The notes under the pieces are model-generated. The model did not search any database. It was not told the origin of the DNA and saw only the letters and a program-made list of their open reading frames with translations. Shown piece after piece: positions 12,637 through 44,431 of a stretch of 64,000 nucleotides of DNA. Source of the DNA: Arthonia radiata (taxonomy: Eukaryota; Ascomycota; Arthoniomycetes; Arthoniales; Arthoniaceae). The stretch is taken from contig PSQN01000004.1 in NCBI GenBank assembly GCA_002989075.1, positions 1,054,001 through 1,118,000 of the forward strand. Direction: 5' to 3'. The first letter of the stretch is position 1. Every line of letters begins with the position of its first letter. The translations under genes were made by a program, and so were the position numbers.

Positions 12637-14218
12637 TCTTTGCCAAGAGCTGGATGTGCTTGCCGAGAGGTCTACACATGCTCGACAGACGCCATGGTCT
12701 GGCGGATGGTATAGCTCCGGGGGCGTGTATGGGTTGAGGTCGGTCAGGTGAGGCCAGATCTCAATTCTCACGCATGCTACACCTTGCTTAGACGGCTAAG
12801 TAGGAGCACACGCGCGCAAGACGCGTTGTTGTTCGTCTGGAGTCAAGTTGCTGGTTTGCAAATGGGAATGAGCAAACAACGCGCTAATGCAACCTTAACC
12901 TTAAAGCATCGATATTATCGATAGTCATCCTCGAAGCTGGAACTGCAGGTGCGGAGGCACCACCCTAGGATCCTTAGGTATACCGTACCCCGCTTTTTCT
13001 AATATAGTATATATACTAAAATAAAAGTAAAGATACGTAAAGCTAGGAATTCTTAGCTAAGTTGTTTATATACTCTTTTTTACTCTTATAAAACCTTATT
13101 ATTAATAATAATATTTAAAAATTAAGTCTATATAGCTAGCTTAATAGTAGTAAACTTATCTATACTATTTATACTATTACTAATAGTGTTACTATTAATA
13201 AATAGTTTTTATTCTATTTTATAACTATATTACTAATTTAACTCTTTTTTAATTATAAATTATAAGTATCTTTTATAACTATTTAGCTAGTAAGTTTAAC
13301 TATTCTTACTTATTTTAGTATAAAATAGACTATTGTATTTATTAACTTAAAAATTTTAATATAAAGCTTTTTAATTAGTAAAACTTTATAACTAAAAAAG
13401 ATATAGTTAATAAAAAGTAATAGTAATATCTTTATAAGGACTATTAGTTTATATAGTATAATAATAGTAAGATCTATATTTTACTTAAATATATATTTAA
13501 TATTATTATTCATATATATAAATAAATTAATACTAATAAAGATAAAACTTTTATTACTATTAATAAGTTTTATTATAGTATATTGATTAATAAAATAAAG
13601 TAGCTTATTAATTAATATTACTACTATATTTTTAATATTACATTAATAGCTACTACGTTTATTTAGCTAATTATTATTAATTATATATTTAAGTAGATAT
13701 ATATTAATTCAATAAACTTTTAGTTATAGTCTTTAAATAGATATAAGTAAACTATAGTTATTTAAAACTACTTTAGTAAGTATATTAATATTTATATATT
13801 AAAAATAAAGTTTAATAAAAAAGTAGCTAATTACTATAAACTTTAAATTAAGTATCTTATTACTTTATATATTAATTAGTTCAATAGTAGTAGTAAGTTT
13901 AAAAGAGTTTTTATACTTTTACTTCTATAGTATAGTATTAAGATTATTTATAGCTTACGATACTCTTTTTAAGTAAATAGCTAAATTAAATAGTAGAACT
14001 AGTTAATTAAGCTAATAATTATTAAAAAGATACTTAAAAATAGATATAACTACTAGTATAAATATCTTATTTATTATAAAATTAGCTTAAATTAGTTATT
14101 TACTATATTTAGAAGCTATTAATATACCTATTATATTAAGAAGACTATTCTTTACTATATATAATCTTTTAGTTTATCTTCTATTAACGCTATCTTTTAA
14201 TTATTTAAATAAAGATAA
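12637..14218. other. Transition from gene DNA to RIP-like AT-rich DNA
   Basis: Up to about 12980 the sequence is ordinary palB upstream DNA. From about 12990 it becomes extremely AT-rich, dominated by TA, TTA and TATA strings and without long open frames, as expected of old repeat DNA heavily altered by RIP. No element family can be recognised in it. Confidence 0.75.
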
Positions 14219-14490
14219 TGTTATAGACAATGTTGAGAACAACTTATTAACTACACAAAGAAACAGATAGAATTCCAAAGCTACAGAACAACTATCTAGG
14301 AAACTAGAACTGCTATTTAGTTAGTTGGAGCGGTTTGCCAAGCCTTTACCTTTTGCCTGGGCAACCGGAGATAAAGCTGGGAGAAGGTGAACTGGCAATT
14401 AATTAGTGGCAAAGAACAGTCTTCCTAATGCGACAGGCGTGTCAATAGCTTTCAAAGGCGGCAGACGCCGAGCAAGGCAGTTCCATAACA
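14219..14490 (-). repeat. Element A LTR, left copy (3' LTR of the minus-strand element)
   Basis: 272 bp, starting TGTTATAG and ending TTCCATAACA. It aligns along most of its length with 39714-39987. The adjacent C-rich run (ATCCCCCCCTTC) is the polypurine tract on the minus strand. Confidence 0.85.
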
Positions 14491-14499
14491 CTATCCCCC

Positions 14500-16169
14500 C
14501 CTTCAAGAAGCTAGTTGCCCTCAATCAGCGAGATAACAGAGGGTTTCAACTACCTAGGTCTTGGCTTGCTCGGGTATTTCTCGTAGAAGCTCTCTAGTAG
14601 ATCCTAAGCGTGTTTAAAGTCTTTAATCGGGTACTATTTTCGGTCTTCGTCGTAGCCGTACTATTTTGCGCGGGCCTAGATTTGTTTTTAACTTTTCTGT
14701 ACGTTAATAATATCTTTAACGACCTATTCGTTGTTATTATTAATTACGATAGGCTCTGGGTCGGAGTACTCCTAGCCTTCTAAAGGCTCGTTAGGGTCTC
14801 TTAACAATATTAAGAAATTAAATGTTTTATAGATTTCTATTGAATCTAAAAGGTCTAGTATATAGGTATTTCTTCGGCGATACGTAATTGCGTATAGTCC
14901 GATATACTTGTAATCTAGCTTCTTTAATAATCGCTCCGTTTAAATGTTCTTAGTTAATAGCTATACTTTGTCTCTAACTTCGAAGGTTGTATTAGACCTC
15001 TGTTTATTGGCCTGCTCCATTATCTTAAGTTAAGCTTGTTCTATATTCGATTTTCCTTCTTTCTACAATTCCTAGAAATAGTTGCTTATAGCCTCTACTT
15101 TGTCCGATTGAACCCTCTTGTAGGCAGTTTAGTCCTAATTGATAGGTTTCATTGTAGGTTCGAAGCTTATTTAGAGTTCGTATCCGTAGGTTATACCAAA
15201 TAGTAACATTTTAGTTGTTTTAGATACCGTAGCATTTACCGCAAACTCGGCCGCGGGAAGCTTGTCGTACTAGTTATCTTGATAGTAATTTACAAATATT
15301 TTTAGGTGCACCTCTATACCTTAATAAGAGATTTTGGATTGGCTATCGGTCTAAGGGTAATAAGCGGTTGTAAGTTTAATATTTACTTTTAAGCGCTTTA
15401 TTAAGTGTCTTTAAACTACGCTAGTAAACCGTAGATCCCGGTTAGACGTTAGGAACCTCGGGAGTCCTTGTTTGTACTATACGTTCTAGTAAATTAGGTT
15501 CGCTATCGATTCGGCATCCGTTTCGCTAAGTCTAAACTTGCAGAGAAGGAATATTTTCAGCTTCGCTAATCTGTCAACCAGCACCAAGATAGCATTGTCT
15601 TTGTTTGGTCTAGACTTCGGTAGGTCGGTAACAAAATCTATAGTGTAGTCTAAGTTAGGCCTCTTGGAGGCCAGCAACGGCTAAAGGAGCCCTGCTAGCT
15701 TCTTGTTCCTTGGCTTAGCCCTCCTACAGACATAGTAATTGTCGACAAACTACTTTATCTTTCTTAACAGTTAGGAAAACTAGTAGTGTCTAGCGAGCTA
15801 ACGAATTGTGTTTTTAACTCCTAGGTGTCTTGTTTTCATTAAAGAATGTATCTTGTTAATTACTTCGGTAACGTAGAAACTAGGCACTACTAAGCGTTCT
15901 TGTATTAATAGCAGTTCATTAACATTTAAGTATAGTAGTAGATAATAGCCTTCAACGTTTCTATCGATTAAATTGTCTTCTTTATATTTAGCTAGGGCTT
16001 TACGGATATAACTAAAAGCTTTATCTTTAGTATTCGCTTCTTTTACCAATTCTTTAAGTACCGCTAGGGGTTCGACCTCGTCTTTCGCATCGATTAGGTA
16101 TACTTAACAGTCTTCTCGGACCTTCGTAGACAGTTTGCTAGCGGGCAACAACGTTTAAAATATGTTAGG
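14500..16169 (-). pseudogene. Element A integrase and chromodomain-like tail (fossil)
   Basis: The minus strand carries integrase signatures: a zinc-binding-like region (SLMKTRHLGVKNTIR) near 15800-15850 and a core-domain segment (DYTIDFVTDLPKSRPNKDN) near 15600-15650, followed toward 14600 by a chromodomain-like end. Broken. Confidence 0.75.
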
Positions 16170-16174
16170 ATCTT

Positions 16175-16646
16175 TATTACGAGCACCAGCCCCAGACGGC
16201 CTAGCGTGCACCCAAGCATTAACCACCGCTAGTTATCTTAGCCCTACCAGCATTATTCCCGACTAAGCCTATAAACCCGCCGTAGGCATTGTCGGACAAA
16301 ACGGCTATAAGAGCCTATATTCCCTATAAACCCGATATAGGCATTGTCGAGATTAACAGACATAGAGGAACTTCTTTATATACCTTAGATTATATAGCTA
16401 GACTAATAACCGACCTTAGAATAAACTTTAGTTTATTAACTTAATATTTGAATACAAGTTTCTTAACTATATTTAAGTAACGTACTTTACCTTCTATCTA
16501 CTTTAGTTAAGCTCTTCTTACCCTCTATAATCTATCTCGCCTCTCCTATCTTTTAGTCTCTAGCACACAAGACACCTACTACTAAGGTCGATAAGCACAC
16601 AAGGCAAGTAAGCCTTAGTTTAGTTCTTTTAGCGACCAGCGTTATA
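16175..16646 (+). repeat. Element B 5' LTR
   Basis: 472 bp, starting TATTACGAGCACCAGC and ending GCGACCAGCGTTATA. Same length as the 3' copy and as both LTRs of element C. Confidence 0.92.
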
Positions 16647-16688
16647 CTTTAATAAACTCGCTACGAAAGTAGAGAAAGCAGATTAATT

Positions 16689-19600
16689 ATGTCTACTACT
16701 TTAGTACCCAACAGCCGCAACGCTGCGGATAGATTGGCCAATAGAATAGCCAGTACGAGTAAGATATCGGACGTCAACACTAAGATAGGGAAAAGCTTCT
16801 TAGATAAACGTTTCAAAGTTACTTTATTCTTAATATGCCTAGCTATATACTTTAAAACTTACAAAGACTAGTTCCTAAACGATACTATTATAGTTCTATT
16901 CGCTACCTTTTATATAAATAGAGATGCTTACAAGTAGGTTAAGTATTATTTTACACGATTTTTTGTTCACTCTAATAAAGAGTAGGCGCGAGGACACCGA
17001 CGAGTTCTTTGCTAGCTTTACCTTCTTTTAGAAGAAGCTTCGTAAAATCTTTAGACAGACCGACGCTAGACGCGTCGCTATTAGAAAGCTTAGAAACCTT
17101 AAACAAATAAGACCAGCAAGCAGGTACGCCGTCGAATTTATATAGTATGCTAATTAAATAGGATAGAACGAGAAACCCCTTATCGAGACCTTTTACGAAG
17201 GACTTAAGGATTATATTAAGAAAATAATCTATATTCGTAGAGAGAAGTTTAATAATCTCGACAACTTTATACAACGAGCAAAGAAGATCGACGACAGTAA
17301 CTTTAAAAGATATATAGAAAAGAAGAGTAACCCTACTAACAGGTTCTATAGAACAAAGAATCGAGCAAACTTACAATAAGACCGAGGCGATCCAATAGAG
17401 CTAGATTTTATAAAGCCTCGAGAAAAACTAAACAATCAAGAAAGAGAACATAGAATAAAGAATAAGCTATACTTATATTACGGAAAACTAGGGCATTAAG
17501 TTAAAGAATACCGTTCTAAGAAATAATAGTTCAACAGTACCGGTAGAAACAAGCACAATAATCGATCTTAGAAACCCTGTCTCCTACAATAATAGTTTAA
17601 TATAACTACCTAGACAAAAGAGGACAATAGTCGCAACAAGGCAATAGAACTACTAGCAGCCTTCTCCGACCGCTAACAGAAGGACCCGACCGAGGGTTGT
17701 CTTCTTCAAGAATTAAGTCTCTCACAGAAGACTATCCAGAACTAGTATAAGTACGTTACTAGACTAACCAAGGAGCAGAAGAATATCTACTAAAATGCCT
17801 TCTGTAACTAGGAAAACACTCACCAGGTTTCGTCTAACGAAAAGCACAACGAGTAGAATTTATTTAATTTACACAAAAACTAGGATACAGATATTAAGTT
17901 ATAAGAAGAAATAAAGGAACGATAAATAAAACAGGAACAACAAAATCTATAGGACTAGAACAACATTAACCGCACTATTCCGAGACAGTGGGTACGAGAT
18001 ACCGCTACACTATACGAAACACTATTCTAAACTGCGTGCTACGATAATAATTGTACGACCCACAAATCTAACAAATTGGAATTAAGATGGTAGCCGAAGA
18101 AACCGATATCTCTAAAACAAGGTTTAATATAAGAACTAGGCCTTACCCGAGGACGACCTAGGTTACCTTATCTAGAGACTTAAGAAGAATTTAAGAAAGA
18201 ACAGACCGTAGAAGCTAAGCAAGATAGCGGCTACGATGCGTTATAGGTAAGACAACGACTTAAAGACAAAAATATAGATTCTAATGGTACAGAATCCTCG
18301 CTCGAGGACAACACTAACTAGAAAAAGCAAACTCTAATTCGTTGGGAAGGAATAATATAGAGACTTTGTTAGTTAACCTTCTACGATAGAAAGTTAAGCG
18401 CTAATAGGGATATTAACGATATTTCGAAATATATTTACTTACGCCTACGACGACCGGTAGACTACCTTATTAGAGATCTAGAATTATATAGTTAGTACTA
18501 ATATCTTTAACTAACAATATACAACCTACAGACACAACGAGTCTTAACTAGTAATAGTTGTATAATTAAAGTAGAGATCGTAAATAACAAACTAGACGTT
18601 ATAATAAAAGTAGTACTAGGACATCCTATACAGGCATTCTTATAGCAAATTAACCGACAATAGGTTCTGGTACTTAAAATACTCTAGAACGTACACGATT
18701 AACAGAGAAAAGACTAGACCGACTGCTTCGAGGGCAGTAGTACTAGCCCGTCTAACGGTTAGACCCTCTAAAAGTCTAGTTCTACGCGAGCTTGGCTGTC
18801 TATAGAATATATCTATATACTTAGGCAACAATAAACTATAGAAACATTAAAATTATAATCAATTTAGACGCAACAGGCAACTTTATCTCAATACGCTACG
18901 TTAAAGAGTACTAAATATAAACACGAAAGAAGAAATTACCCTACGTACTGTCTAAATTTCAAGGGATAGAGGAAAGAGTCGACTACAAGACTTCGCCAAT
19001 AAGTATAACAATTAGGGACTATTAGAAAGAAATTACTTATAATATCGTAGATATTAATTAGTACTACGCTGTGCTAAGTATACCTTAGTTACAACAATAT
19101 AACCTAGAAGTAGATTAGAGAACTAAGAAACTCCTCTTTACTAGGTACAAGCACTCTAAACAAGAGTTGTTCTTCGGAACGGATACCTTATAAGCTATTT
19201 TTAGTAGTAAGAATAAGAAGCGCAATAAAGAACTTACGCGGGTTAGTACCACTATATTCCGACATTCAGACATCTTACGAGAGAAGTCTAACGCAGTATC
19301 TCGTCTATAGCTAACTACGCGCAAGTATAAACAAGAGACAACTATACGCCAACGATTCTATACAACAACAAGTACTTAGTTAATTACTAAGATACTAGAG
19401 AAATACAATTAATTCTAACATCTGTTTAAGAAAGCTGAGCCGAACTCAGCTCTCCTAGAACACAAACCGTAGGATTATATAATACCTTTATAAGAAGGTA
19501 AAACGCTAATATTCGGTTCAATATACTTTCTATTAGAAGCAGAAAATTAAGCGCTCTGCGACTATCTTAACAAAAATCTTAAAAAGGAATTTATCTAGAA

Positions 19601-22230
19601 ATTAACATTACTAGCCGGATACCCGATACTCTTTATACTAAAGAAGAATAGTAAACTACGACTCTACGTAGACTATAGACAATTAAACAGGGTAACTATT
19701 AAGAATCGATACTCTTTACTATATATCGACAAAATAACAGACCGATTATATAACGCGCAATAGTTTACTAAGTTTAATCTATAAGGAGCTTATAACCTAG
19801 TTTGTATACAAGAAGGCGAAGAATAGAAAACAGCCTTCTATACCAGACATAGACTTTTTAAGTATTGCGTTATACCCTTTGAGCTAATAAACGTACCAGT
19901 ATTATTTTAGAAACTAATTAACAATACATTTAGCGATTACCTAAATATATTTATAACTGCTTATCTAAACGATATCCTAGTATACAGCTGTATACTAGAA
20001 GAACATAAAAAATATATTAAGAAGGTATTAGAAAGATTAGCGTGTACCGATTTACAAACCGATATTAAGAAAACCCAGTTTTATCAACAATCCGTCGAAT
20101 TTCTTAGATTTATAATTACCGAGCACGGTCTTTAAATAAAAGATTCAAAGATCTAATCCGTTCTAACCTAGCCTATATCAAAGAATATAAAACAATTGCA
20201 ACAGTTTCTTAGTTTTGCTAACTACTATAAGCGATAGATATCCAACTTTAGCCGAATTATAGTACCGCTGTCTTAATAGACAAAACAATCGATAGAATTC
20301 TTTTAGACGCAAAAAGAACAATTAGTATTTAAAGAGCTTAAGGAAGCTTTTAGAATCGGGCCTATACTAGCAATATTCGACCCTAACCTACCGATTATTA
20401 TAGAAACAGACGCGTTAGACTATGCGATTAGAGTATATATAAGTTAAAACAATAAGGAAGGGAAGCTTAGACTAGTAGCTTTCTACTTAAAAAAAATATT
20501 ATCTATAGAACAGAACTACGATATTTATAATAAAGAGCTTTTAACTATTATAGCAGTATTCAAAATATAGCGAGCTTACCTAGAAGGAGCAAACTATACG
20601 ATTATAATATATATAAACTATAAGAATCTAACTTATTTTACAACAACAAAGAAACTTAACTGTAGACAAGTTAGATAGTTAGAGACTATAGCTCTATACA
20701 ACTTTATTATTACCTACAAGAAGGGTTTTAAGAACGATAGAGCCAACGCTCTAAGCCGACAACTAAATTACCTTAATAACAAGGAACACGTTAAGTATGC
20801 AATATTCTAAGAATATAATAATAAGATTAGATACAATCAATTAGCTATAATAATTGAGTTTATTATCGAACCGAATAGCCGAATCCTAGATATTCTGAAC
20901 GATCCTAAAACTTACTAGGAAAACGAGAAACGACACCTAGAACTAACAAAAAACAGCAAGGGCTATTACAAATTTTAAGGCAAGATCTACGTTCTAAGGA
21001 ATCTAATCCGACACATTATTAGTAACTTTTACGATAACCTAACAAAGAGACACAAGGGCATCGATAACACTATTAAGAAGATTATACGAACCTACTATAT
21101 TCCGAGAATTCGACATTACGTCGAGAATTATATTTAAGAATGCGACGTATACGTAAGAACTAAGCACCCAAGGCATTCACTATACGGTGAACTACAACTA
21201 CTAAAGATATCCGAGAGACTATAATATACAGTCTTACTAAACTTTATTACTAAGTTACTAACCTCCAAGGATCTACTTATAGGAGTAGCTTACAACGCTA
21301 TTCTAGTTATATGCGACAAACTAATAAAGTACGCATACTTCGTACCTTACAAGGAAGCTAGCAACTTAGAACAATTAGTATATACCTTCCTTCGGATTAT
21401 CCTAGTAAACTATAGTTAACCACAAAGAATTGTCTCAGACAAAGACTAAAAATTTGTTTCACAATTTTAAATATCCCTAATACAACAGCTAGAAACAAAA
21501 TAAAAGATATCAACGTCGTTCTATCTACAAACAGACGAATAAATAGAGCAGACAAATTAAATACTAGAACAGTATCTTCGGGCATATATTAACTATCAGC
21601 AGAACGACTAGGTATAATTACTACTAGTAGCGCAAGTAGCGCACAACAATACAAAAAACAATACGACCAAAATAACACCGTTCTATGCCCTATACGGCTA
21701 TTACCCTCTTTAAGGCAAACAACTACAAAATACTACAGAAAACGACACTGCTACATAAATAGTAACGAATATAAAGACCCTGTACTAGCAGTTAAAGGCT
21801 AACAGCGAGTTTATTAACGAACAAACAAGGAAATAGTATAATAAGTTAAGAACTACTCTAAATACAAGCATAAAAGAGGAGGAAAGAGCTTACTTGCTTA
21901 TAAGAAATATAAAAACTATTAAACTAAGCAAGAAACTCGACTACACTAAGACAAAACTATTTAAAATCTTATAGCAATTAGGACCCGTAACATTTAAACT
22001 TAAACTCCTAAAAACGATAAAAATATATTCTGTATTCTACGTAGCGCTGTTAAAACTAGCTTACTTCTAAGAGGTAGAACGACCCAACCTAGAAATCCTT
22101 CTTAACAACTAAGAACCCGAGTATAAGGTTAAAACGATTTAAGCTTATAAACAATATCGAGGCAAACGACAGTATCTTATAAAGTAGAGAGAATATCCAG
22201 AACATAAAAATTAATGGGAACCGGAACGAA
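16689..22230 (+). pseudogene. Element B gag-pol region (fossil)
   Basis: Starts with a gag segment (RNAADRLANRIASTSKI), has a degraded zinc-knuckle area near 17460-17520, a reverse-transcriptase catalytic segment near 19960-20110 (LNDILVYS), RNase H near 20300-20760, integrase near 20900-21900 and a chromodomain near 22100-22220. Broken by many interruptions. Confidence 0.8.
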
Positions 22231-22236
22231 ACCTAA

Positions 22237-22708
22237 TGTAACGCCGGTCGCTAAGAGGACCGAACTAAGGCTCACTTGCCTTGTATGCTTATCGACCTTA
22301 ATAGTGGGTGTCTCGTGTACTAGAGACTAAAAGGCAGGAGAGGCGAGATAGATTATAGAAGGTAAGAGGGGCTTGACTAGAGTAGATAGAAGGTAAAGCA
22401 CGTTACTTAAATATAGTTAAGGAACTTATATTCAGATATTAAGTTAACAGACTAAAGTTTATTCTAAGGTCGGCTATTAGTTTAGCTATATAATTTAAGG
22501 TACATAGGGAAGTTCCTCTATGTCCGTTAATCTCGATAATGCTTATATCGGGTTTATAAAGAACGTAGGCTCTTATAGCCGTCTTGTTCGATAATGCCTA
22601 CAGCGGGTTTATAGGCTTAGTCGGGAATAATACTAGTAGGGCTGAGATAACTGGCGGTGGTTAATACTTAGGTACACGCTAGGCCGTCTAGAGCTGGTGC
22701 CCGTAACA
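22237..22708 (-). repeat. Element C LTR, left copy (3' LTR of the minus-strand element)
   Basis: 472 bp, TGTAACGCCGGTCGC to GTGCCCGTAACA. The adjacent C-rich stretch ATCCCCCCTC is the polypurine tract on the minus strand. Confidence 0.92.
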
Positions 22709-22749
22709 CAATCCCCCCTCTTCTAGTTAAATCGTTTTTAATTAACCCT

Positions 22750-25700
22750 CAGCCTTTTAAACACCTATAAGTTGCGTTTTGTCCCTTCTTCCGTAACTAA
22801 TCTATAAGTCGCTATACCTCGCATAAAGTCTGTTGCTGCGGGTCCTAACAAAAAGTTTAGCTAATACCTGTTAATTAAAGCCTACGGTATTAAAATGCCT
22901 CCTTGTTCTAAATATATATCAACTAAGGAAAGGTGTGTGGTTTAGTTTAGGAAGGCGACGTGTTCGATGTGTACTCGAGATAAAAAGAGTTGTAATTTAC
23001 GGGTATCGATAGCAGATAGTATGCCCTATTGTTGTCTTTCTGTAATATCTAGAACTAACTTAGTTGTAGCGCGTTCAGTTTATTCTCAATATTCCTCTTA
23101 GTCGGCTGTCCTTCAGCGTACAAAACGTTAGTTACGCGCGTTAAAGTCCTAGACAGCAGCGTTGATTGCGGCTGTATAGCGTAACCGATCTAAGGTCTAA
23201 AAGTTAAAAGAGGAGGTTAAGAAGACTTGTACGCGAGCAGCAGCGAAGTTAGCTTAAAATAAGTTGTTGGAGCAAGAGAAGTTTGCTGCGTTAATAGCTG
23301 GTAGCGATATATTTAAATGTCCGAGCGGGTTGTTTATTGACTTTCGGGGTGACCCTTATCCAGAGTTAGGTAGTAGTCCTATAACGTAGTGGGCTGGTTC
23401 GTTTGTAGGTAACCTAGGTACTAGCGAGGCGCACTAGATAGTAAATTAGGGTATTAGTGCTGCTATAACCGACTAATATTCTAATTTCAATATCGTCGAA
23501 TAGTGTCTTTATAGTTAGTTAGGTTTCGTTCTAGTTCCTATTAATTTTTATGTTCTAGATATTCTCTCTACTTTATAAGATACTGTCGTTTGCCTCGATG
23601 TTGTTTATAGGCTCGAATCGTTTTAACCTTATACTCGGGTTCTTGGTTGTTAGAAAGGATTTCTGGGTTGAATCGTTCTACCTCTCGGGAGTAAGCTGGT
23701 TTTAACAGCGCTACGTAGAATACAGAATATATTTTTATTGTCTTTGGGAGTTTAAGTTTAAATATTACGGGTCCCAATTGCTATAAGATTTTAAACGGTT
23801 CTGTCTTAGTATAGTTAAGTTTCTTGCTTAGTCTAATAGTTTTTAAGTTTCTTATAAGTAAGTAAGCTCTTCCCCCCTCTTTTATACTTGTATTTAGGGT
23901 TGTTCTCGACTTATTATATTATTTTCTTGTTTGTTTGTTAATAAACTCGCTATTAGCCTTTAACTACTGGTACAGAGTCTTTATATTCGTTACTATTCGT
24001 ATAGCAGTGTCGTTTTCTGCAGTGTTTTGTAGTTGTCTGCCCTAAAGAGGGTGATAGCCGTATAAGACATAGAACGGTGTTATTTTGGTCGTATCGTTTT
24101 TTGTATCGTTGTGCGCTACTTGCGCTACTAGTAGTAATTGTACCTAGTCGTTCTGCTGGTAGTTAATGTATGCCCAGAGATACTATTCTAGTGTTTAATT
24201 TGTTCGCTCTATCTGTCCGTCTGTTTGTAAATAGAATAACGTTAATATTTTTTGTTTTGTCTCTAGCTGTTGTATTAGAGATGTCCAAAATCGTAAGACG
24301 AATTTCTAGTCTCTGTCCGAGACAATTCTTTGTGGTTGACTATAGTTTGCTAAGATAATCCGAAGGAAGGTATATACTAATTGTTCTAAGTTGCTAGCTT
24401 CTTTGTAAGGTACGAAGTACGCGTACTTTGTTAGTTTGTCGCATATAACCAGGATAGCGTCGTATACTACTCCTGTAAGTAAATCCTTGGATGCTAGTAA
24501 CTTAGTAATAAAGTTTAGTAAGACTATATGCTATAGTCTCTCGAGTATTTCTAGTGGTTGTAGTTTACTGTACGGTAAATGTCTCGGGTACTTAGTTCTT
24601 GCGCAAACGTCGCATTCTCGGATATAATTTTTAACGTAATGTCGAATTCTCGGGATGTAGTAGGTTCGTATAATCTTTTTAATAGTGTTGTCGATGCCCT
24701 TGTGTCCCTTTGTTGGGTTATCGTAAAAGTTACTGATAATGTGTCGGATTAGATTCCTTGGAACGTAGATTTTACCTTAGAATTTATAATAGCCCTTGTT
24801 GTTTTTTGTTAGTCCTAGATATCGTTTCTTGTTTTCCTGATAGGTCTTAGGATCGTTCAGGATGTCTGAGATTTAGCTGTTTGGTTCAATAACAAACTCT
24901 GTTGTTATAGCTAATTGATTGTATCTAATCTCGTTATTGTGTTCTTAGAATATTGCGTGTTCGACGTGTTCCTTATTATTAAGATAATCTAGTCGTCGGC
25001 TTAGAGCGTCGGCTCTGTCGTTCTCTAAACCCTTCTTGTAGGTAATAATAAAGTTGTATAGAGCTATAGTTTCCGACTATCTAACCTGTCTGCAGTTAAG
25101 TTTCTTTGTCGTTGTAAAGTAGGTTAGGTTCTTATAGTCCGTATATACTATAATCGTATAGTTTGCTCCTTCTAGGTAAGCTCACTATATTTCGAATGCT
25201 GCTATAATAGCTAAAAGCTCTTTATCGTAAATATCGTAGTTCTGTTCTGTGAGTAATATTTTTCTTGAGTAGAAAGCTACTAGTCTAAGCTTTCCTTCTT
25301 TGTTATTTTAACTTATATATGCTTCAATTGTATAGTCTAACGCGTCTGTTTCTATAATAATCGGTAGATTAGAGTCAAATATTGCTAGTACGGGTCCGAT
25401 CTTAAAAGCTTCCTTAAGCTCTTTAAATACTAATTGTTCTTTTCTACGTCTAAAAAAATTCTATCGATTGTTTTGTCTATTGAGACAGCGGTGCTATAAT
25501 TCGGCTAAAGTTGGATATCTATCGTCTGTAGTAGTTAACAAAACTAAGAAACTGTTGCAACTGTTTTATATTCTTTGGTGTAGGCTAGGTTAGAACGGAT
25601 TAGATCTTCAAATCTTCTATTTAAAGACTGTGCTCGGTAATTATAAATCTAAGAAATTCGACGGATTATTAATAGAACTAGGTTTTCTCGATATCGATTC

Positions 25701-26522
25701 GTAAATCGGCACGCGCTAATCTCTCTAATACCTTCTTAATATATTTCTTATGTTCTTCTAGTATACAGCTGTATACTAGAATATCGTTTAAATAAGCAGT
25801 TATAAATATGTCTAGATAATTACTAAGTATGTTGTTAATTAGCTTCTAAAATAATGCTAGAGCGTTCGTTAGCCCGAAGGGCATAACGCAATACTCAAAA
25901 AGTCTGTATCTGGTACAGAAGGCTGTTTTCTATTCTTCGCCTTTCTGTATACAGATTAGGTTGTAAGCTCCTCGCAGGTTAAACTTAGTAAACTATCGCG
26001 CGTTATACAATCGGTCTATTATTTTGTTAATATGTAGTAAAGGGTATCGGTTCTTAATAGTTACCCTATTTAGTTGTCTGTAATTTACGTAGAGTCGTAG
26101 TTTACTATTCTTCTTTGATACGAAGAGTATCGGGTATCCGGCTAGTAATGTTAATTTCCGGATAAATCTTTTCTTAAGATTCTCGTCGAGATAGTCGCAG
26201 AGCGCTTAATTTTCTGCTTCTAATAGGGAGTATATTAGACCGAATATTAGCGTTTTGCCTTCTTATAAAGGTATTGTGTAATCCTACGGTTTGTGTTCTG
26301 GGAGAGCTGAGTTCGGCTCAGCTTCCTCGAATAGATATCGGAATTGATTGTATTCCTCTAGTATCTTAGTAATCAACTGAGTACTTGTTGTCGTGTAGAA
26401 TCGTTGGCGTGCAGTCGTCTCTTGTTTATACTTGCGTGTAGCTGGCCACAGACGAGATACTGCGTTAGACTCCTCTCGTAGGATGTCTAAATGTTGGAGT
26501 GTGGTGGTGCTAACCCGCGTGA
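22750..26522 (-). pseudogene. Element C chromodomain, integrase, RNase H and reverse transcriptase (fossil)
   Basis: On the minus strand, 23568-23777 encodes an integrase C-terminal segment (GPVIFKLKLPKTIKIYSV) running into a chromodomain (YKVKTIRAYKQHRGKRQYL). Integrase core lies about 23950-24900, RNase H about 25000-25450 and reverse transcriptase about 25600-26250. Broken. Confidence 0.8.
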
Positions 26523-26527
26523 GTTCT

Positions 26528-26713
26528 TGTTATATGCAGGATCGACCAGTCTAGATAAGTATGCCAAGACACGGGATGCTCAGTAGGGAATTGCCTAAAT
26601 AGGCATATACTGTAGTTACGTAATAGACGCGCACACACTTTGCCGCTTATTACTATATATCCTAGACCTCTCCCTTATATAGTCCAAAATTAATAATTGT
26701 CCAAACCTCAACA
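26528..26713 (+). repeat. Element D 5' LTR
   Basis: 186 bp, TGTTATATGCAGG to AACCTCAACA; matches 31603-31788 over its whole length without indels. Confidence 0.93.
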
Positions 26714-27199
26714 GATTATAAGCCCGGCAGCTTCATTGCGCACAGAAGGCTTCACCTTAAAGTTTTGGTAGCGATTAGCCCAATAGCGGCCTTACTATCG
26801 CCGTTGTTACCCAAGCTGCCTCCAGCCGCTCAGGGGTAAATCCCATCACCGGCGACAGCAAGGCCGAACGGTAAGATATTAAGACTCAAACGTTATCCTA
26901 ACGTTCTCAGCGTGCCTCTTTATCCCCGAAGCACTCTCCCTTGTTAATTCGGGCCTTCAGACCCTTATTATCGGCGTCGTTCGAACCTGCCACTAAGCAG
27001 GTAAGAGCGGTGTTCAAAAACTTCACAAAGTATCGTTACACGAAGGCCTCTTAGACCAGTTCAATAGATAGCAGAATCAAACCTTATATTGCAGGCATTT
27101 ACCAGCTTTAAATTTAATCACTGTCTTTACTGTTGCTCTTGCCAAAACCGTAATTTCGTCTCGCTATTACTATAGACTCCCAATCGTTCTACAATGCCT

Positions 27200-28140
27200 A
27201 CGACAAAGTCCCTCAGTGGCGTATAAAATCACCTCACGACTTCCCTCGATACCGTGTCGAAGTCGACAATGTCCTCGGTGCCGCAGGCCTCAGAGCGTTT
27301 ATCCAAAACAGGGCTCCTAAGCCTAAGCAAGAGAAGAAAAGTGCATATAATAAGCAAAAGACCCTACACGAGCTATGAGATCAGCTTAATAGCAAGGCAA
27401 AGTAAATCTTTCTACGCCAGCTTCCTACGGATGTCGCTGTTATCGTTGGGACTTACCCTACTACACAAGAGATTTGGGACCATATAAACTAACAATACAA
27501 AGTCTCTCCTTTACCTAAGATATTCGAACTTATCGACCAGCTCCCAAGCATCACGCTCGAGGGCTCGAAGAGCCTGGAAGACTACATTAACCGCTTCCTT
27601 AAGTGTAGAGAAGAACTCCGTACCCTGGGCGAGGATAATTAAGTGTACCCAGATCTCTATGACAGTGTCTTATTCCTACGGGAATTAAAGACCGAGACAA
27701 GGATGAACGAGGTAATTAGGGAGCTACGTTTTGCAGAGCTAGTGCCTGCAATTTATTACGTTATCAACAGGATTCGAGCCGAGTACCAGTATAAGGGGAT
27801 CCCAATAATGAAAAACAAGAGGCCAGGGCTCTCCGTAGCCAAGTCTCAAGACAATCTTATTGCCACTAACGACCTACTAGCTACTATAGGCGCCCAGGGC
27901 AAAAAGAAGAAAAAGAAGAGCAATACTTACCTAGGCAGATGCGACCTGCATCCAGAAGCCGGGCATCGAAACAATGAATACTACAAACAGCACCCCAAGC
28001 TGCTTGCTAAGCTTAAGAAGGAGAAGGCTAACAAGACCAAGTTCTCCGAGATAGCAGGCGTAGCTATTGCTACATTATCTACAATCACACCATTAACGGC
28101 GGCGATAACGTTTAGTGAGCTCTCCTACAATAAGATATAG
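27200..28140 (+). pseudogene. Element D gag region (fossil)
   Basis: Copia gag with UBN2-like helical content (RELRFAELVPAIYYVINRIR) and, near 27940, a CDLHPEAGHRNNEYY segment at the zinc-knuckle position. Broken. Confidence 0.75.
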
Positions 28141-29470
28141 ATGTACGACACCGGTACTACTGTCTATATTTGCACAAACCTCAACGCCTTCGTTACTATT
28201 AGGAAACTCGAGGAACTAAAGCAAATAAAAGTAGCAGACGGACTCGTATTTGCTACCCAGTGTGGAGATATAATCTTAAATCTTGAGCTCGCCGATGGCA
28301 GCAGCAACGTTCTCCGCCTACTAGACGTTTTGTTTGTTCCTTCTGGCTCAATTAACATTATTTCAGCTCAAAGGCTAAAGAAATCCTGTAGTTTATACCT
28401 CGATCACCAAAATAATCGACTTATAGTAGGAAACAAACTATATGCCAAGCTTACCATTATCGACGACCTTCTCTTCGTTATCCCTACCGGCGTCAAGCAG
28501 CCAATTCGGACTGGAACTGCTGCACCGGCCGTGCCAACGACGCCTCTCACACCGGAGCTAATCCACAAGCGTCTTGGGCATCCAGGGATGTCTATTATAA
28601 GGAAGATTAATAAGCGGTATAATGAGCTTACTGGCTTGCCAGACATTTCTTAGTGTGAGACTTGTTATATATCTAAATCCCAAAGAGCACAATTTAGAAC
28701 TTTAGAACGCTCCGAGCGGCCAATGCAGCGTCTCTACGCAGATACAATTGGCTAAGTAACGTTTACCGACGACAACGATCTCCCTCAGGGGGCTAGCAAG
28801 TATACCGTTATCGTTACTGATGATTGCACCCGGCGTAGGTGGTCGATAACGTTCTTATCGAAGGACCGTATCGCTAAGGGGGTCATTAACTTATTCAATT
28901 ACCTCCGCAATTACTATCCGGATCAACGCATTTCCGAGTGCCATGCTAATAGTAGTACTAAGTTCAATTTAGTCATTAAGAAGGCTTCTGAGCTAGGGAT
29001 TCAGGCTAGGATATCTGCTCTATATACCCCTAAGGAAAATGGATTAGCAGAGTTGTCTAATAAGGTCGTCCTTGTCAAAGCTAGAAGCATAATAATCGAT
29101 AGTAGCGTGTCTAGTCGGCTCTGGCCGGATGCACTGTCCTACGCTACTTACATATTAAATAGGATCCCGTTCGGTAAGGAGGATAGATGTTCCCTGCAGA
29201 TTTTCGATAACCCTAAGGACAAAACCCCGAAGGCTCTTAGCTTGAGTTATCTACGCCGGTTTGGCTGCTTAGCCTACCTATACTTGCCTGTGTAGACACG
29301 TACAAAGAGCCAGAAGTTCGTGCCTAGGGCGAGGAAGCTCCTATTTGTAGGCTTCGTCGCCGGTACTATTTACACCTACCAAATTGTCGATCCAGTCGAC
29401 TTTAAGACCTATTAAAGTTTATACGCTACGTTTAATGAGTTAGCAGTGTTCAAGGATTGCCTGTAGTCGT
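28141..29470 (+). pseudogene. Element D protease, pre-integrase and integrase region (fossil)
   Basis: Starts with an aspartic-protease-like segment (MYDTGTTVYIC), then the GAG-pre-integrase block (HKRLGHPGMSIIRKI) and an integrase core between about 28700 and 29300. Broken. Confidence 0.8.
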
Positions 29471-30049
29471 TCAACTACGCCGGTAATGACCTCGAGACCT
29501 TGCTCGAGTCCAATATCCCCGAGTACACGCCTAGCGGCGAACTTGGCGGCAACGATATTGTGCCTCATACAACCCCTAGAGCTCCGAAAATAAGCGGGAG
29601 CGAGCTTTTGGAACTAGAACGTTCTCTTGCAACATCTCCCAAAGTTTCTGAACAGAATAATTTTTTACATGAAAGTCGTCAAACCACCCCTGGTAGTGAC
29701 CCCCCCGAGGGCGACGACCAGCCAACTAGTGACGGAGGCGACAATGACGCCCCCTCCGGATGTGAAGTCGATAACGGAGAACAGCCTCACCAAGAAACTG
29801 GAGCCGTATCTCCAGAAATTCGAGCTCAGCGTCGCTCCGGACGGACCACAGTTCGGCGTGACTACGATAAAATGAGCAAAACCGGCTTGCCTGGATCCGC
29901 TTTGCACGTGTTTTCTGCGGCAAAAACAAACGAACTGTTTCTTGATCCCACAAGCTACAAAGAAGCCATAAGCAGAGCAGATGCTCCCTGCTGGGACTCC
30001 GCAGCGAGAGCCGAACTCAAGTAGCTCCACGACACCGGCACCGTTACCA

Positions 30050-31450
30050 GGTACCAAGTATCGAGTCTTCCAGCTGGCTCGAAGCCAATCTCCAGCACGC
30101 TGGTATTCAAACTAAAACGCCATCTAGATGGGACAATCGACAAATATAAGGTACGGCTAGTCGCCCGCGGATTTGAACAACGGTACGGAATCGATTACTG
30201 GGATACTGCAGCCTCTACTGTAAGCGCCCCCGCAGTTCGAGTACTTCTCGCCGTCGCCGTGCAGCTCGATTGGACCTTTATACAGATAGATGTCGTAGGT
30301 ACTTATCTAAATGGCGTCTTAAATCACGGAAAACCTCTCTATATAAAGCTTCTAAAAGGCCTTGAAGAAGAAGGGGTAGTTCTACGCGTTTGGAACTCAT
30401 TGTACGGCCTTAAACAGTCCGCAATGCTGTGGCAAGATAATTTTAAAGAAACAATGAAGGAACTCGGCTTCACTAGCCTATACTTAGAGGTTTGTCTGTA
30501 CGCCAATAAGGACCGCACATGCCTGGTGCTTATCTACGTCGATGACATTAAGATTACCGGCTCCGACACCAAAGCAATTTACAAATTGAAGAGGGATCTC
30601 GAAAAGAAATACGAAATTAAAGAGATCGACCAAACTACTAGCTCTTTCCTAGGGCTAATCATCAAACAATCGTCGCAGGGACTTACCGTTTCTCAGCCGC
30701 AGTATATCGACAAGCTGCTGCGTGATTTTAGCATGGATGAGTGTAATGAGACGAAGTCCCCCGGGAACGTTTAGCTTGAAGCTCGTACCGTAGGCCAGGC
30801 GTCTCCGGCGGAGGTAACCCTGTATATATCAGCTACGGGATCCCTACAGTACCTCGCCACCCAGACTCGGCCAGATATAGCCAATCAAACTAACATGTGT
30901 GCGAGGTTTAATCACAATCCCAGCCGTGCACACTGGGAGGCGGTCAAACGCCTGTTTCGATATCTTAAGGGCACACGCCACCTCGGCCTACTCTTTACCA
31001 AGCACAACCACCTCACCGTCGACGCCTACAGCGACGCAGACTACGCCGGAGACCCGGACAACCGTAAGTTTACAAGCGGCTCTGTCATCAAGGTGAGCGG
31101 AAGTCCCGTTGTGTGGCGTAGCAGACTTTAAAACAAAGCGGTGTTTTCGACTATCGAAGCCGAGTACTATACCCTCGCTGAGGCGACTCGAGACGTTCTG
31201 TGGTTAAACAACCTGCTTGAGGAACTTCACCTCACCGGCGCCGTTTAATTGCCCATCACAATCTATAAGGACAGCAATAGGGCAATTAACCTCGCTACCA
31301 ACCACGTAAACTACAAGCGGTCTAAGTATGTAGACCTCGCTAATTATATCTGCAGGCAGTCAGTCGAAAACGGTTCGATTAAGGTTTAGAAGATCGACAC
31401 TACCAAGCAAGCCGCAGATAGCTTAACAAAGCCTCTCCTACTACCAATGT
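30050..31450 (+). pseudogene. Element D reverse transcriptase and RNase H (fossil)
   Basis: Clear Copia reverse transcriptase (IQIDVVGTYLNG, SLYGLKQS, LIYVDDIKITG) at 30259-30774 and RNase H (DAYSDADYAGDPDNRK) near 31020-31130, with the C-terminal part reaching about 31450. Broken. Confidence 0.88.
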
Positions 31451-31602
31451 AGCAGGGCTTTATTCAACAATTAGGTCTCCGGACCTAGCCGCACAAGGTG
31501 TGCAGTTCTTTTGTTACCTACACGCCTAGACAGGCTAGCTCCTTTGTCACAAAAATAGGTTTTTGGCTTGTTATTACCTACGCTGGTGATCCTGAGGGGG
31601 TG

Positions 31603-31788
31603 TGTTATATACAGGATCGGCCAGTTTAGATAAGTATGCCAAGACACGAGATGCTTAGTGGAGAATTGCCTAAATAGGCATATACTGTAGTTACGTAATG
31701 AACGCGCACACACTTTGCCGCTCATTACTATGTATCCTAGACCTCTCCCTTATACAGTCTGGAATTAATAATTGTCCAAACCTCAATA
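31603..31788 (+). repeat. Element D 3' LTR
   Basis: 186 bp, TGTTATATACAGG to AACCTCAATA, preceded by the polypurine tract. Confidence 0.93.
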
Positions 31789-31793
31789 GTTCT

Positions 31794-34182
31794 TTATCGC
31801 GCTTCTTATTCTCACTACTAAAAATAGCTTGTAGGGTATCCGTTCCGTAGAACGACTCTTGTCTAGAGTGCTTATACCTAGTAAAGAGGAGTTTCTTAAT
31901 TCTCTAATCTACTTCTAAATTATATTGTTGCAACTAGGGTATACCTAGCACGGCGTAGTACTAGTTAATATCTACGATATTATAAGTAATTTCTTCCTAA
32001 TAGTCCTCAATAGTTATACCTATTAGTAAAGTCTTGTAGTCGACTCTTTCCTCTGCCCCTTAAAATCTAGACAGTGCGTAGGGTAATTTCTTCTTTTGTG
32101 TTTGTATCTGGCACTCCTCAACGCAGCGTGTTGAGATAAAGTTGCCTGTTGCGCCTAAATCGATTATAATTTTAATGTTTCTGTGGTTTATTGTTGCTCG
32201 AGTGTGCAGGTGTGTTCTGTAGGCAGCCGAGCTCGCGCAGAGCTAGACTCCTAGAGGGTCTGACCGTTGGACGGGCCGGTACTGCTGCCCTCGAAGTAGT
32301 CGGCCTAGTCTTTTTCCTGTTGATTGTATACGTTCTAGAGTATTTTGGGTACCGGAACCTATTGTCGGTTAATTTGCTGTAAGAATGCCTGTGTGGGGTG
32401 TCCTAGTACTGCTTTTATTATAACGTCTGGTTTGTTGTTTATGATCCCTGCTTTAATTATACAACTATCGCTAGTTAAAACTTGTTGTGTCTGTGGGTTG
32501 TATATTGTTAGTCGAAGATATTGGTACTAACTGCGTAATTCTAGACCCCTAATAAGGTGGTCTACTAGTTGTTGTAGGCGTAAGTAAATATATCCCAGAA
32601 TGTTGTTAATGTCTCTATTAGCGCTCAACTTTCTATCGTAAAAGGCCAACTAACAAAGTCTCTATATTATTCCTTCCTAACGGATTGGGGTTTGCTCTTC
32701 CTAGTTAGTATCGTCCTTAAGAGAGGATTCTGTACTATTAGAATCTATGTTTTTGTCTTCGAGTCGTTATTTTGCCTATAACGCATCGTAGCTGCTATCT
32801 TGCTTAGCTTCTACGGTCTGTTTTTCCTTAGATTCCCCTTAGGTCTCTAGATAAGGTAACCTAGGTTGTCTTCGGGTAAGGCCTAGTTTTTGTGTCGAAC
32901 CTTGTTTTAGAGATATTGGTTTCTTCGGCCACTATCCTAATCCTAATTTATCGGATTCGTGAGTCGTGCAATTATTATTGTAGTACGCAGTCTAGGATAG
33001 TGTTTTGTGTAGTGTAACGGTATTTTGTACCTGCTGCCTCGGAATAGTGCGGTTAATATTGTTTCAGTCCTGTAGGTTTCGTTGTTCCTGTTTTATTTGT
33101 TGTTCCTTTGTTTCTTCCTATAACTCAATGTCTGTATCCCAGTTTTTGTGTAAATTAAATAAGTTCTACTCGTTATGCTTCCCGTTAGAAGTAACCTAGT
33201 AAGTGTCTTCCTGTGTCTAGATAGTTATATTGAACTATTGTCGTAGGAAACGGGGTTTTCGAGGTTGATTGTTGTGCCCGTTTCGTCCTGTACTGTTGAA
33301 CTGTTGTTTCTTAGAACAGCATTCTTTAACTTAATGCCCTAGTTTTCCGCAATACAAGCATAGCTTGTTCTTTATTCTGTGTTCTTTTTCTTGGTTGTTT
33401 AGTTTCCCTCGAGGCTTTATAAAATCTAGCTCCATTGGATCGCCTCGGTCTTATTGTAAGTTTGCTCGATTCTTTGCTCTATAGAACCTGTTAGTAGGGT
33501 TACCCTTCTTTTCTATCTATCTTTTAAAGTTGCTGTCGTCGATTTCCTTTGCTCGTTGTATAAAGTTGTCAAGATTATCGAACTTCTTTCTACGGATATA
33601 GATTATTTCCTTAATATAATCCTTAAGTCCTTCGTAAAAGGTCTCAATAAGGGGTTTCTTGTCCTATCCTGTTTAATTAGCATACTGTATAAATTCGGCG
33701 GCGTACCTGCTTGCTGGTCCTATTTGTTTAAGGTTCCTAAGCTTCCTAATAGTAACGCGTCCAGCGTCGGTCTGTCTAAAGATTTTACGAAGCTTCTTCT
33801 AAAAGAAGATAAAGCTAGTAAAGAACTCGTCGGTATCCTCGCGCCTACTCTTTATCGGAGTAAACAAGAAATCGTCGAGGTAGTACTCAACCCACTTGTA
33901 AACATCTCTGTCTATATAAGAGGTAGCGAATAGAACTATAGTAGTATCGTTTAGGAACTAGTCTTTGTAAGTTTTAAAGTATATGGCTAAGCGTATTAAG
34001 AATAAAGTAACTTCGGAACGTTCATCTAAGAAGCTTTTTTCTATCTTAGTGTTGATATCTGATATCTTACTCGTGCTAGCTATTCTATTGGCTAACCTAT
34101 CCGCAGCGTTGCGGCTATTGGGTATCGAAGTAATAGACATAACTAATCTGCTTTCTCTGCTTTCGTAGCGAGTCTGTTAAAG
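31794..34182 (-). pseudogene. Element C gag and protease region (fossil)
   Basis: The minus strand begins at about 34140 with the same gag start seen in element B (RNAADRLANRIASTSKI) and runs through gag and protease toward the site of the Copia insertion. Broken. Confidence 0.75.
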
Positions 34183-34654
34183 TGTAACGCCGGTCGCTAG
34201 GAGGACCGAACTAAGGCTTACTTGCCTTGTGTGCTTGTTGACCTTAATGGTGGGTGTCTCGTGTGCTAAAGACTGAAAGGCAGGAGAGACAAGACAGATT
34301 ATAGAAGGTAAGAGGGGCTTGACTAGAGTAGACAGAAGGTAAAGTACGTTACTTAAATATAGTTAAGGAACTTGTATTTAGATATTAAGTTAACAGACTA
34401 AAGTCTATTCTAAGGTCGGCTATTAGTCTAGCTATATAATCTAAGGTATATAGGGAAGTTCCTCTGTGTCCGTTAATTTTAATAATGCCTATGTTAGGTT
34501 TATAGGGAACGTAGGCTCTTATAGCTATCTTGTCCGACAATGCCTACGGCGGGTTTATAGGCTTAGTCGGGAATAATGCTGGTAGGGCTGAGATAACTGG
34601 CGGTGGTTAATACTTAGGTGCACGCTAGGCCGTCTGGAGCTGGTGTCCGTAACA
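34183..34654 (-). repeat. Element C LTR, right copy (5' LTR of the minus-strand element)
   Basis: 472 bp, TGTAACGCCGGTCGC to GTGTCCGTAACA, directly followed by the CCTAA target duplication. Confidence 0.92.
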
Positions 34655-35469
34655 CCTAACCAACTATAAAGACACTATTCGACGATATTAGAATTAGAAT
34701 ATTAGTCGGTTATAGCAGCACTAACACTCTAATTTACTACCTAGTGCGCCTCGCTAGTACCTAGGTTACCTACAAACGAACTAGCTTACTACGTTATAGA
34801 ACTACTACCCAACTCTAGATAAAGGTTACCCCGAAAGTTAACAGATAACCCGCTTAGACATTTAAATATATCGTTACTAGCTATTAACGCAGCAAACTCC
34901 TCTTACTTTAATAACTTATTTCGAGCTAACTTCGCTGCTACCCGCGCACAAGTCTTTTTAACCTTCTTTTTTAACTTCCGGACCTTAGATCGGTTACGCT
35001 GCACAGCCGCAATCAACGCTGCTACCTAGGACTTTGACGCGCGTAACTAACGTTTCGTACGCTAAAGAGCAGCCGACTGGGAGGAATATTGAGAATAAAC
35101 CGAACGCGCTGCAACTAAGTTAGTTTCAGGCATTACAGAAAGACAACAATAGGGTATACTATCTACTATCGATACCCGTAAATTACAACTCTTTCTATCT
35201 CGAGTATACACCGAACACGTCGCCTTCCTAAACTAAACTACACACCTTTCCTTAGTCGACACACATCTAAAACAAGGAGGCATTTTAATACCGCAGGCTT
35301 CAATTTACAGGTATCGGCTATACTTTTTATTAAGACCCGCAGCAACGGACTTTATGCGAGGCATAGCGACTTACAGATTAGTTATAAAAGGAGAGACAAA
35401 ACGCAACTTATAGGTATTTAAAAGGCTAAGGGTTAATTAAGAACAATTTAACTAGAAGAGGGGGGATTG

Positions 35470-35941
35470 TATTACGAGCACCAGCCCTAGACGGCCTAGC
35501 GTGTACCCAAGCATTAATTACCGCTAGTTATCTCAGCCCTACTAGCATTATTCCCGACTAAGCCTATAAACCCGCCGTAGACATTATCGGACAAAATGGC
35601 TATAAGAGCCTAGATTCCTTATAAACCCGATATAAGCATTATTAAGATTAACGGACACAGAGAAACTTCCTTATATACCTTAGATTATATAGCTAAACTA
35701 ATAGTCGACCTTAGGATAGACTTTAGTCTATTAACTTAACATCTGAATATAAGTTTCTTAACTATATTTAAGTAACGTACTTTACCTTCTATCTACTTTA
35801 GTTAAGCCCCTCTTACTCTCTATAATCTATCTCGCCTCTCCTACCTTTTAGTCTCTAGTATACGAGACACCCACCACTAAGGTCGACAAGCACACAAGGC
35901 AAGTGAGCCTTAGTTCGGTCCTTCCAGCGACCGGCGTTACA
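35470..35941 (+). repeat. Element B 3' LTR
   Basis: 472 bp, TATTACGAGCACCAGC to GCGACCGGCGTTACA, preceded by the polypurine tract GAGGGGGGATTG and followed by ATCTT. Confidence 0.92.
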
Positions 35942-35946
35942 ATCTT

Positions 35947-38900: not shown

Positions 38901-39713
38901 AGACGTCCTTCGGTATAGTCTCTTTAGCTTAGTTTAAGTAAGGTTCTATGTACTAGGCGGCGGTTTTATCTAGGCGTAATAGGATATAAGCTACTTTAGC
39001 CTTATTTAACGGATAGCGATTAGCGTTGATATGCATCTTGTTCTTTATACGACGTATTTATAACTTAAGCTCTTGTAAGGCTTCGCTAGCGAAAATAGGA
39101 GGGTCGGGCACCTTCTTAGATTTCTCTTTATTGCTAATCTAACTTAACGCAGGCGTCTCCTTAGTAGTCTCTTCGCGACTCTCTCTAATTGTTTAGGAAT
39201 TAATATTCTAACGACGATTTTAGCGCTTGTCCTCTTTAGTCTAGAGCTTACGTAATTGAGCTTAAGTATCGATATGTTTGACGTAGAATTCTGTTCAAAA
39301 TACAGAGAAGTTCTCTAGCCGGGTCATTATTAGGTTAATTATGTTATTGTCTGTCGCGTAGCTCCTAATGTCTCTGTAGAATTACGCATTAGTGTTATTA
39401 TTACTAACTAGACGGTCTAGTAACGATTCTCGGGGTGCTATCTTATATAGCAGGTATATAACTATTAAAGCTTTGTACTTGGATAGGGTTAACAATACTT
39501 TTTATTATAGCGGAATCTATTCTACAAAGTTGGTTTAATTCGGTTCGGTTTCTACTAACTGCCTCGCTCGGCGTCTGTTAGTTGTATCTTGCTAAAGGAT
39601 ACTTAAATAGTTCGACGGGTTTATTGGGTGCAGTACAACAGTCTTTAATAGGTATTAACACTATTAATATCTGCTGCGTATATATAAATAAAAGGGGTAG
39701 AGCTTTGGAATAA
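35947..39713 (-). pseudogene. Element A RNase H, reverse transcriptase, protease and gag region (fossil)
   Basis: On the minus strand, RNase H at about 35960-36400, reverse transcriptase at about 36500-37330 (segments YLNDILNFSKLKKKHKEHI and LPYRLQDLKIKLKPGFELP), then protease and gag regions to about 39600. Broken by many interruptions. Confidence 0.78.
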
Positions 39714-39987
39714 TGTTACGAGCGATGTCGAGAACAACTTATTAACTGCACAGAGGAACAGATAGAATTCTAAAGCTACAGAACAACTATTTAGGAAACT
39801 AGAACTGCTATCTAGTTAGTTGAAGCGGTTTGCTAAGCCTTTACCTTTTGCCTAGGTAACCGGAGGTAAAGCTGGGAGAAGGTGAACTGGCAATTGATTG
39901 GTGGCAAAGAACAGTCTTCCCAATGCGGCAGGCGTGTTAATAGCTTCCAAAGGCGGTAGTTGGTTGATCTGAGGCAGTTCCGTAACA
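39714..39987 (-). repeat. Element A LTR, right copy (5' LTR of the minus-strand element)
   Basis: 274 bp, TGTTACGAGCGATG to TTCCGTAACA. It matches 14219-14490 apart from transitions and one short variable stretch near its right end. Confidence 0.85.
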
Positions 39988-41200: not shown

Positions 41201-41342
41201 TACAATGCTCCTTTTTGTCCTAGGCCCGACCCTTTAGGTAAAAGGCTTGTTCTATTCTAGGCCAAGACAGCTGGTAGGACCTGTCCGATACTCCGGGCCC
41301 CTGGGGGTTCCGGCTAACCAGCTAGTTGGTTAATTTCTAACA
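41201..41342. repeat. Right arm of the large inverted repeat
   Basis: Ends GGTTAATTTCTAACA and mirrors the left arm. It is either the first ~140 bp of a second LTR in reverse orientation or the end of a foldback structure. Confidence 0.85.
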
Positions 41343-43950: not shown

Positions 43951-44127
43951 GGGCTCATAACCTGTCAAAAGTCGCTAAGATCCTTAAGATTTAAAGCTAC
44001 GAACAAAGCTGAGCGGACTATATGTGCGTGCCATGACTGGTGTCTGTACCAGGAATTCTGGCACGCCAAGCCCGCCACACGAGCCCGAGACTGGTGCATG
44101 ATAGCTGGGACTGGCATATTCTGATAG
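43951..44127 (+). repeat. Unconverted copy of a dispersed repeat
   Basis: GC-rich partner of 42401-42575 (shared anchors ATTTAAAGCTA and GAATTCT/AAATTCT). Lies about 300 bp before the NDUFA13 start. Confidence 0.8.
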
Positions 44128-44431
44128 ACGCTCTCAGAATTGAAGAGCTGACCTCCTGTTTTGGCAACTTTTGGCTATATCTAGCCGTGCGCACGCTAAA
44201 TTGTCTACGCTTTGCGACCCCCGCGCGCTGGTAGGAATAATTGTGATTGCAGAGAGCGTCTGAGGCCACTGAGACTACGACCTTCAATGCGTCCGGTCTC
44301 AGACCTCTCTTCTCTTCAAGATATTACACACAAGCATGCGCACATCCCCACTCCTTCGAATGCGACCATCGCAAATACTAGGCCTTCGCGCCTCACCCAC
44401 ATCCGCCATGCGCGCAACACTGCGGCGGCGG

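Follow-up and report, generated by a model that had tools for sequence, protein, structure and literature searches.

Four LTR retroelements lie one inside the other in an AT-rich island of the 64-kb window analysed here (the whole stretch C14:1054001-1118000, from a genome of 33.5 Mb in 16 contigs; positions given without a contig are those of the window), with element A split by B, B by C and C by D. This arrangement very probably arose by successive LTR-retrotransposon integrations in the RIP-mutated island, the target site duplication (TSD) of A having most likely been lost by recombination between two A copies. The island covers ~13-44 kb of the window and is bordered by gene-bearing DNA, mostly of 49-57% GC, with genes for GH95, calpain/PalB, an AAA ATPase, a bromodomain-BAH protein and TCP-1. 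The RIP and the gene content suggest an ascomycete-like host; a scan for 5.8S rRNA gave no match in the genome. The composite RIP index ranges from 0.46 to 1.60 (i.e. RIP-like) in the 10 island segments tested and is -0.66 and -0.81 in two flank stretches. The AT-rich left flank (13309-14171) has one long relative (~865 bp, 85%) at C10:2138009-2138875, and a 178-bp direct repeat (42400-42577 and 43952-44129, 71% identical) has one copy in AT-rich DNA and the other near its edge.

Element limits were taken from self-comparison of the window together with inspection of the ends, and the TSDs from inspection of the LTR ends:

14219..39987, minus strand: element A, probably Ty3-type, split by B; LTRs 14219-14490 and 39714-39987; no TSD
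16175..35941, plus strand: element B, Ty3-type, split by C; LTRs 16175-16646 and 35470-35941; TSD ATCTT
22237..34654, minus strand: element C, of B's family on the opposite strand, split by D; LTRs 22237-22708 and 34183-34654; TSD CCTAA
26528..31788, plus strand: element D, Copia-type; LTRs 26528-26713 and 31603-31788; TSD GTTCT
16170-16174 and 35942-35946, no strand: target duplication of B, ATCTT
22232-22236 and 34655-34659, no strand: target duplication of C, CCTAA
26523-26527 and 31789-31793, no strand: target duplication of D, GTTCT

Each of the four elements has a direct LTR pair with TG...CA termini (allowing for RIP to TA), and a purine tract (PPT) adjoins the 3' LTR in all of them. 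The LTRs are 87.5% identical in A (272/274 bp), 90.3% in B (472/472 bp), 91.5% in C (472/472 bp) and 91.4% in D (186/186 bp). The preliminary description had placed the nest at 14219-39987, which the LTR pair of A bears out, and its reading of A as split by B, B by C and C by D agrees with the LTR pairs, the TSDs and the empty sites found in related copies. Aligning each inner pair likewise returned the equal lengths that had been reported (472, 472 and 186 bp), perfect 5-bp TSDs (ATCTT, CCTAA and GTTCT) were confirmed at both ends of B, C and D, and the strand order -, +, -, + from A to D was recovered from the positions of PPT and PBS and from the pol pieces. Absent from that description were the lack of a TSD in A, the membership of B and C in one family and the further retroelement pieces that adjoin A.

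Related copies elsewhere in the genome show what the insertion points look like when unoccupied. The B site reads uninterrupted, with one ATCTT, in 17 of the 17 other close A copies that have the left flank of the site, and the divergent A relative L036 is also uninterrupted there, with other letters. At the C site, 42 B-family rows are uninterrupted (CCTAA in 28, TCTAA in six, CCTGA in six and CCTAG in two); these comprise 36 of 38 fetched stretches, five other loci and the window's C, the count leaving out L106 and L109, which gave no alignment across the site. The D site is uninterrupted in a further set of 42 B-family rows, made up of all 31 stretches fetched for it, the window's B and 10 other loci (GTTCT in 28, GTTCC in nine and GTTTC in five). 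The window's B and C thus serve as each other's empty site, C at the C site and B at the D site, and at the predicted C and D points the related copies hold the pentamer singly, either in the window's own form or as a transition variant. Judged by this comparison of copies, in which the B family is represented by the best 40 of 373 candidates, the inserts of B, C and D are true integrations. Since the window's own pentamer state occurs in 28 of the 42 rows at either site, shared states are uninformative as to whether RIP came before or after insertion, and the use of the target pentamers as RIP time stamps was rejected as not discriminating.

The same evidence bears on two ways in which a nest could be present without having formed here. 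Collapsed or misjoined repeats in the assembly might mimic one, every element being multi-copy and the ends of A lying in different hosts (see below), an arrangement that a misjoin within A would likewise produce; we hold this to be highly improbable, as three matched 5-bp TSD pairs, with the host resuming at the exact next base, are not expected from misjoins, and the copies differ by ~10%, a gap that long reads, if used, should resolve. Less credible still is a block duplication that brought all or some of the nest here ready-made, the insertions having taken place at another locus. Segmental copying of AT-rich blocks is conceivable, but nothing observed speaks for it, and none of the A and B/C-family copies examined (for the B family, those best 40) shares an insertion point of B, C or D with the nest, which thus shows no sign of being a copied block.

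Coding remnants allow the families to be assigned. Element D is Copia-type by its RVT_2 match (30025-30771, 3.1e-51) and also has a Pol_BBD match (28141-28650, 9.1e-09); the stretch after its 5' LTR may resemble a half tRNA-iMet site. Elements B and C are Ty3-type, with an RVT_1 piece in B (19911-20132, 3.1e-08, over the cut-off) and an Integrase_H2C2 match in C (24534-24776, 2e-18), and are copies of one family, differing by 763 transitions and 20 transversions over 6676 aligned columns. A segment of ~180 bp of B (17627-17809) is absent from C. In A, an RVT_1 piece on the minus strand (36587-36829, E 3.6e-06) is a weak profile match under the curated cut-off. The Integrase_H2C2 match of C, together with a weak SH3_Tf2-1 match (23571-23780, 1.1e-4, under its cut-off), may give this element a Tf1/sushi-type likeness. 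The sequence just inside the 5' LTR of A shows 11 nt of complementarity to the 3' LTR (8 nt in the 5' LTR), and the corresponding sequence of B/C shows 10 nt to the LTR, which in B is the 5' LTR (7 nt in the 3' LTR). In self-primed elements such as Tf1 and, in Schizosaccharomyces japonicus, Tj1 (PMC4600332), the PBS is complementary to the start of the element's own transcript. A and B/C may resemble them in this respect, the likeness here being one of complementarity alone; unlike in Tf1 and Tj1, the reading frames of A and B/C are broken.

Given the families to which they belong, the inner elements would have been inserted by integrase, each entering as linear double-stranded cDNA via a 5-bp staggered cut in the resident element. 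B would have gone into A, then C, as a second copy of B's family on the opposite strand, into B, and then D, a Copia element, into C. Thereafter, RIP would have mutated all four, D apparently least; at 0.467 its GC exceeds that of the other three, though composition varies between families.

The mutation spectrum is that of RIP. The four LTR pairs together contain 132 transitions and four transversions in 1402 aligned columns, and the changed cytosines between B and C occur in the contexts CpA (286/894), CpG (191/1090), CpC (120/807) and CpT (166/2026). Changes in the repeats are thus almost solely C-to-T/G-to-A, with a CpA bias, and the two flank stretches tested are spared; we infer from this bias and context that the transitions were caused by RIP. 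Candidate enzymes for RIP or methylation may lie among the matches to PF00145 (DNA methylase family), found at four places in the genome (C9:412616; C11:301429, 656068 and 715227). As the differences within LTR pairs are nearly all transitions, they count RIP events and not time, and the identities of the B, C and D pairs (90.3, 91.5 and 91.4%) consequently give no age order. In the nested retrotransposons of maize, SanMiguel et al. reportedly read the order of insertion from the nesting, as is done here, and are said to have dated insertions by LTR divergence, which RIP makes impossible at this locus; the nest is in this sense a warning that LTR divergence is here a measure of RIP.

At the 763 transition sites between B and C, the T/A state is found in B at 500 and in C at 263, as expected if B is older. 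The excess in B is missing to the right of C (41 vs 44 in 34660-35469; 24 vs 19 in the LTR beyond), the B:C counts being 459:219 on the left of C and 41:44 on its right (Fisher p 6e-4). In C and 20 other copies, however, the RIP load of the left arm correlates with that of the right (rho 0.72), and the left-right difference in load of B (0.06) lies inside the spread of the control copies (mean 0.045, sd 0.05), one of which (L160) is without LTR data; three of the 20 (L148, L158 and L159) show a left-right difference at p < 0.05. The arm effect is therefore not special to B, and a separate RIP of the two arms of B was rejected; RIP load had been compared to see whether C split B before or after RIP.

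Element A is flanked by GATAA on the left and ACCGA on the right, i.e. by no 5-bp TSD. Of the 18 A-family elements for which both ends could be read, 11 keep an exact TSD, two have one with a single transition and five, this A among them, have none (not counted are the C1:797561 element, for want of its right end, and the divergent relatives on C6 and C16). With a TSD in 13 of 18 elements, its lack is a trait of this copy and not of the family. The sequences directly beside A are as follows:

14072..14218, plus strand: A2, the initial 147 bp of an LTR from a family related to A, truncated precisely where A's left LTR begins
39988..41185, plus strand: E, 3' part of a Copia-like element with PPT and 3' LTR (40417-41185), its left side cut exactly at A's LTR end
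40695..40951, no strand: F, solo LTR of 257 bp inside E's 3' LTR; TSD CCTAT at 40690-40694 and 40952-40956
41220..41342, minus strand: E', inverted E-type LTR piece with its terminus at 41342; weaker similarity back to ~41197

On the left, at least 29 other places in the genome match A2 over at least 140 of its 147 bp, and all nine copies read run on past the break point with related sequence. On the right, the eight forward-lying loci printed for E all read AATTGCT directly upstream of the break (11 further loci are oppositely oriented and were not read there), which makes the position of A a plausible point of insertion into E. The terminus of the E LTR, TTTTTTAACA, is the same in L042. Element E is tentatively likened to Copia by the motifs of its 3' coding end; the one piece searched, of 98 aa, gave no Pfam match. 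The F stretch is absent from two other E LTRs read through, and the E matches pass over it. Elsewhere in the genome, LTRs of the F type form six pairs 5.6-5.75 kb apart, and tandem pieces of the F LTR start lie ~65 bp apart at C6:344396-344619. In inverted orientation, E' matches the E LTR over its first 123 bp at 94.3% identity. It is likely from this arrangement that E inserted into E', with ~12 unassigned bases between the E LTR end and E'. With the solo LTR F in E and the inverted E' beside it, the right side of the nest may be six levels deep.

That the ends of A lie in two different hosts, the A2 LTR and E, is directly explained by recombination between two A copies, and A is probably the product of such an event, in which its TSD was lost. 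The exchange would most likely have joined an A copy in an A2 LTR to an A copy in the Copia-like E. Its reciprocal product was found neither among the flanks read nor by a pattern search allowing up to three mismatches, a match that RIP could defeat. An unlikely alternative is that A inserted into E and that its left flank was then deleted or otherwise changed, no A-by-A recombination taking place. In its favour, comparison with four E loci that include 1.5 kb of upstream DNA gives no E match on the left of A in the window, and a pattern search for a junction of E5' with A elsewhere came back empty. Such a deletion would, however, need to end precisely where the LTR does, beside the broken LTR of A2, and the mismatch between GATAA and ACCGA includes a transversion, so that RIP alone is no explanation of it. 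Recombination between A copies remains our preferred reading. A rearranged A copy at C12:1494260-1506892 lacks a TSD as well as ~500 bp of A, and has an LTR of the B family at the left break.

Nested clusters of this kind have already been catalogued in a fungal genome, and the present nest is real and well preserved. In Mycosphaerella graminicola (Zymoseptoria tritici), 78 nested TE clusters of 7.5-63 kb with two to seven elements were reported, one of them tabulated as 242 (49 (263 (623))), i.e. with four levels (PMC4522978). They share with this nest LTR base elements, verified TSDs, RIP-type transitions and low GC; they differ in their families, and strict strand alternation is not described in the sections of PMC4522978 drawn on here. 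TSDs were verified in 35 of the 49 clusters with an LTR base in that RIP-type genome (PMC4522978), and in the A family 11 of the 18 elements keep an exact TSD, with two more one transition off; the earlier view that clean junctions are unusual in heavily RIPed DNA is not supported by these counts. Nested insertions in fungi are also mentioned in PMC10787394 and PMC9970103. The locus is of value as a clean example, since relative insertion order, RIP load and recombination are legible together at one place.

The preliminary description had taken A as the oldest element and D as the youngest. For the copies at this locus the nesting upholds insertion in the order A, B, C, D, but this must not be taken for an age order of families, as the same families nest in reverse elsewhere; similarly, A is the oldest among the four only, its flanks being pieces of seemingly older hosts. 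On C11 near 0.78 Mb, a B-family element lies in a D-family element on the opposite strand, each junction having an LTR and TATAA standing on either side, and on C15 near 1.80-1.81 Mb a B-family element lies in a D-family element on the same strand, with a clean right junction and a weak left LTR match (63-79%). On C11 near 1.90 Mb (L019 and L068), an A element has entered a B-family element on the opposite strand (TSD TTAGT). C7 holds a solo E LTR in A on the same strand (TSD ATATC), C2 holds F in A (TSD TTACT), and in L042, L046 and L048 E lies beside or in B-family DNA. The nest therefore orders these copies and not the families, and nesting order of copies should not be mistaken for the age order of families.

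Tentatively, the island may record rearrangement as well as transposition, in the form of ectopic exchange between A copies ~88% alike that were already scattered in other repeats. On this same possible reading, the finding of A, B, D, E and F nested in one another suggests that several families were mobile together for long under active RIP, in which case some source copies must have escaped mutation throughout the time in which inserted copies were being mutated. A general rule of insertion on the opposite strand was rejected, with two same-strand cases (C15 and C7) and two opposite-strand cases (both on C11) elsewhere. The A insertion on C11 near 1.90 Mb lies ~14 bp from the site of D in C (26523-26527), which may reflect chance or a preferred site.
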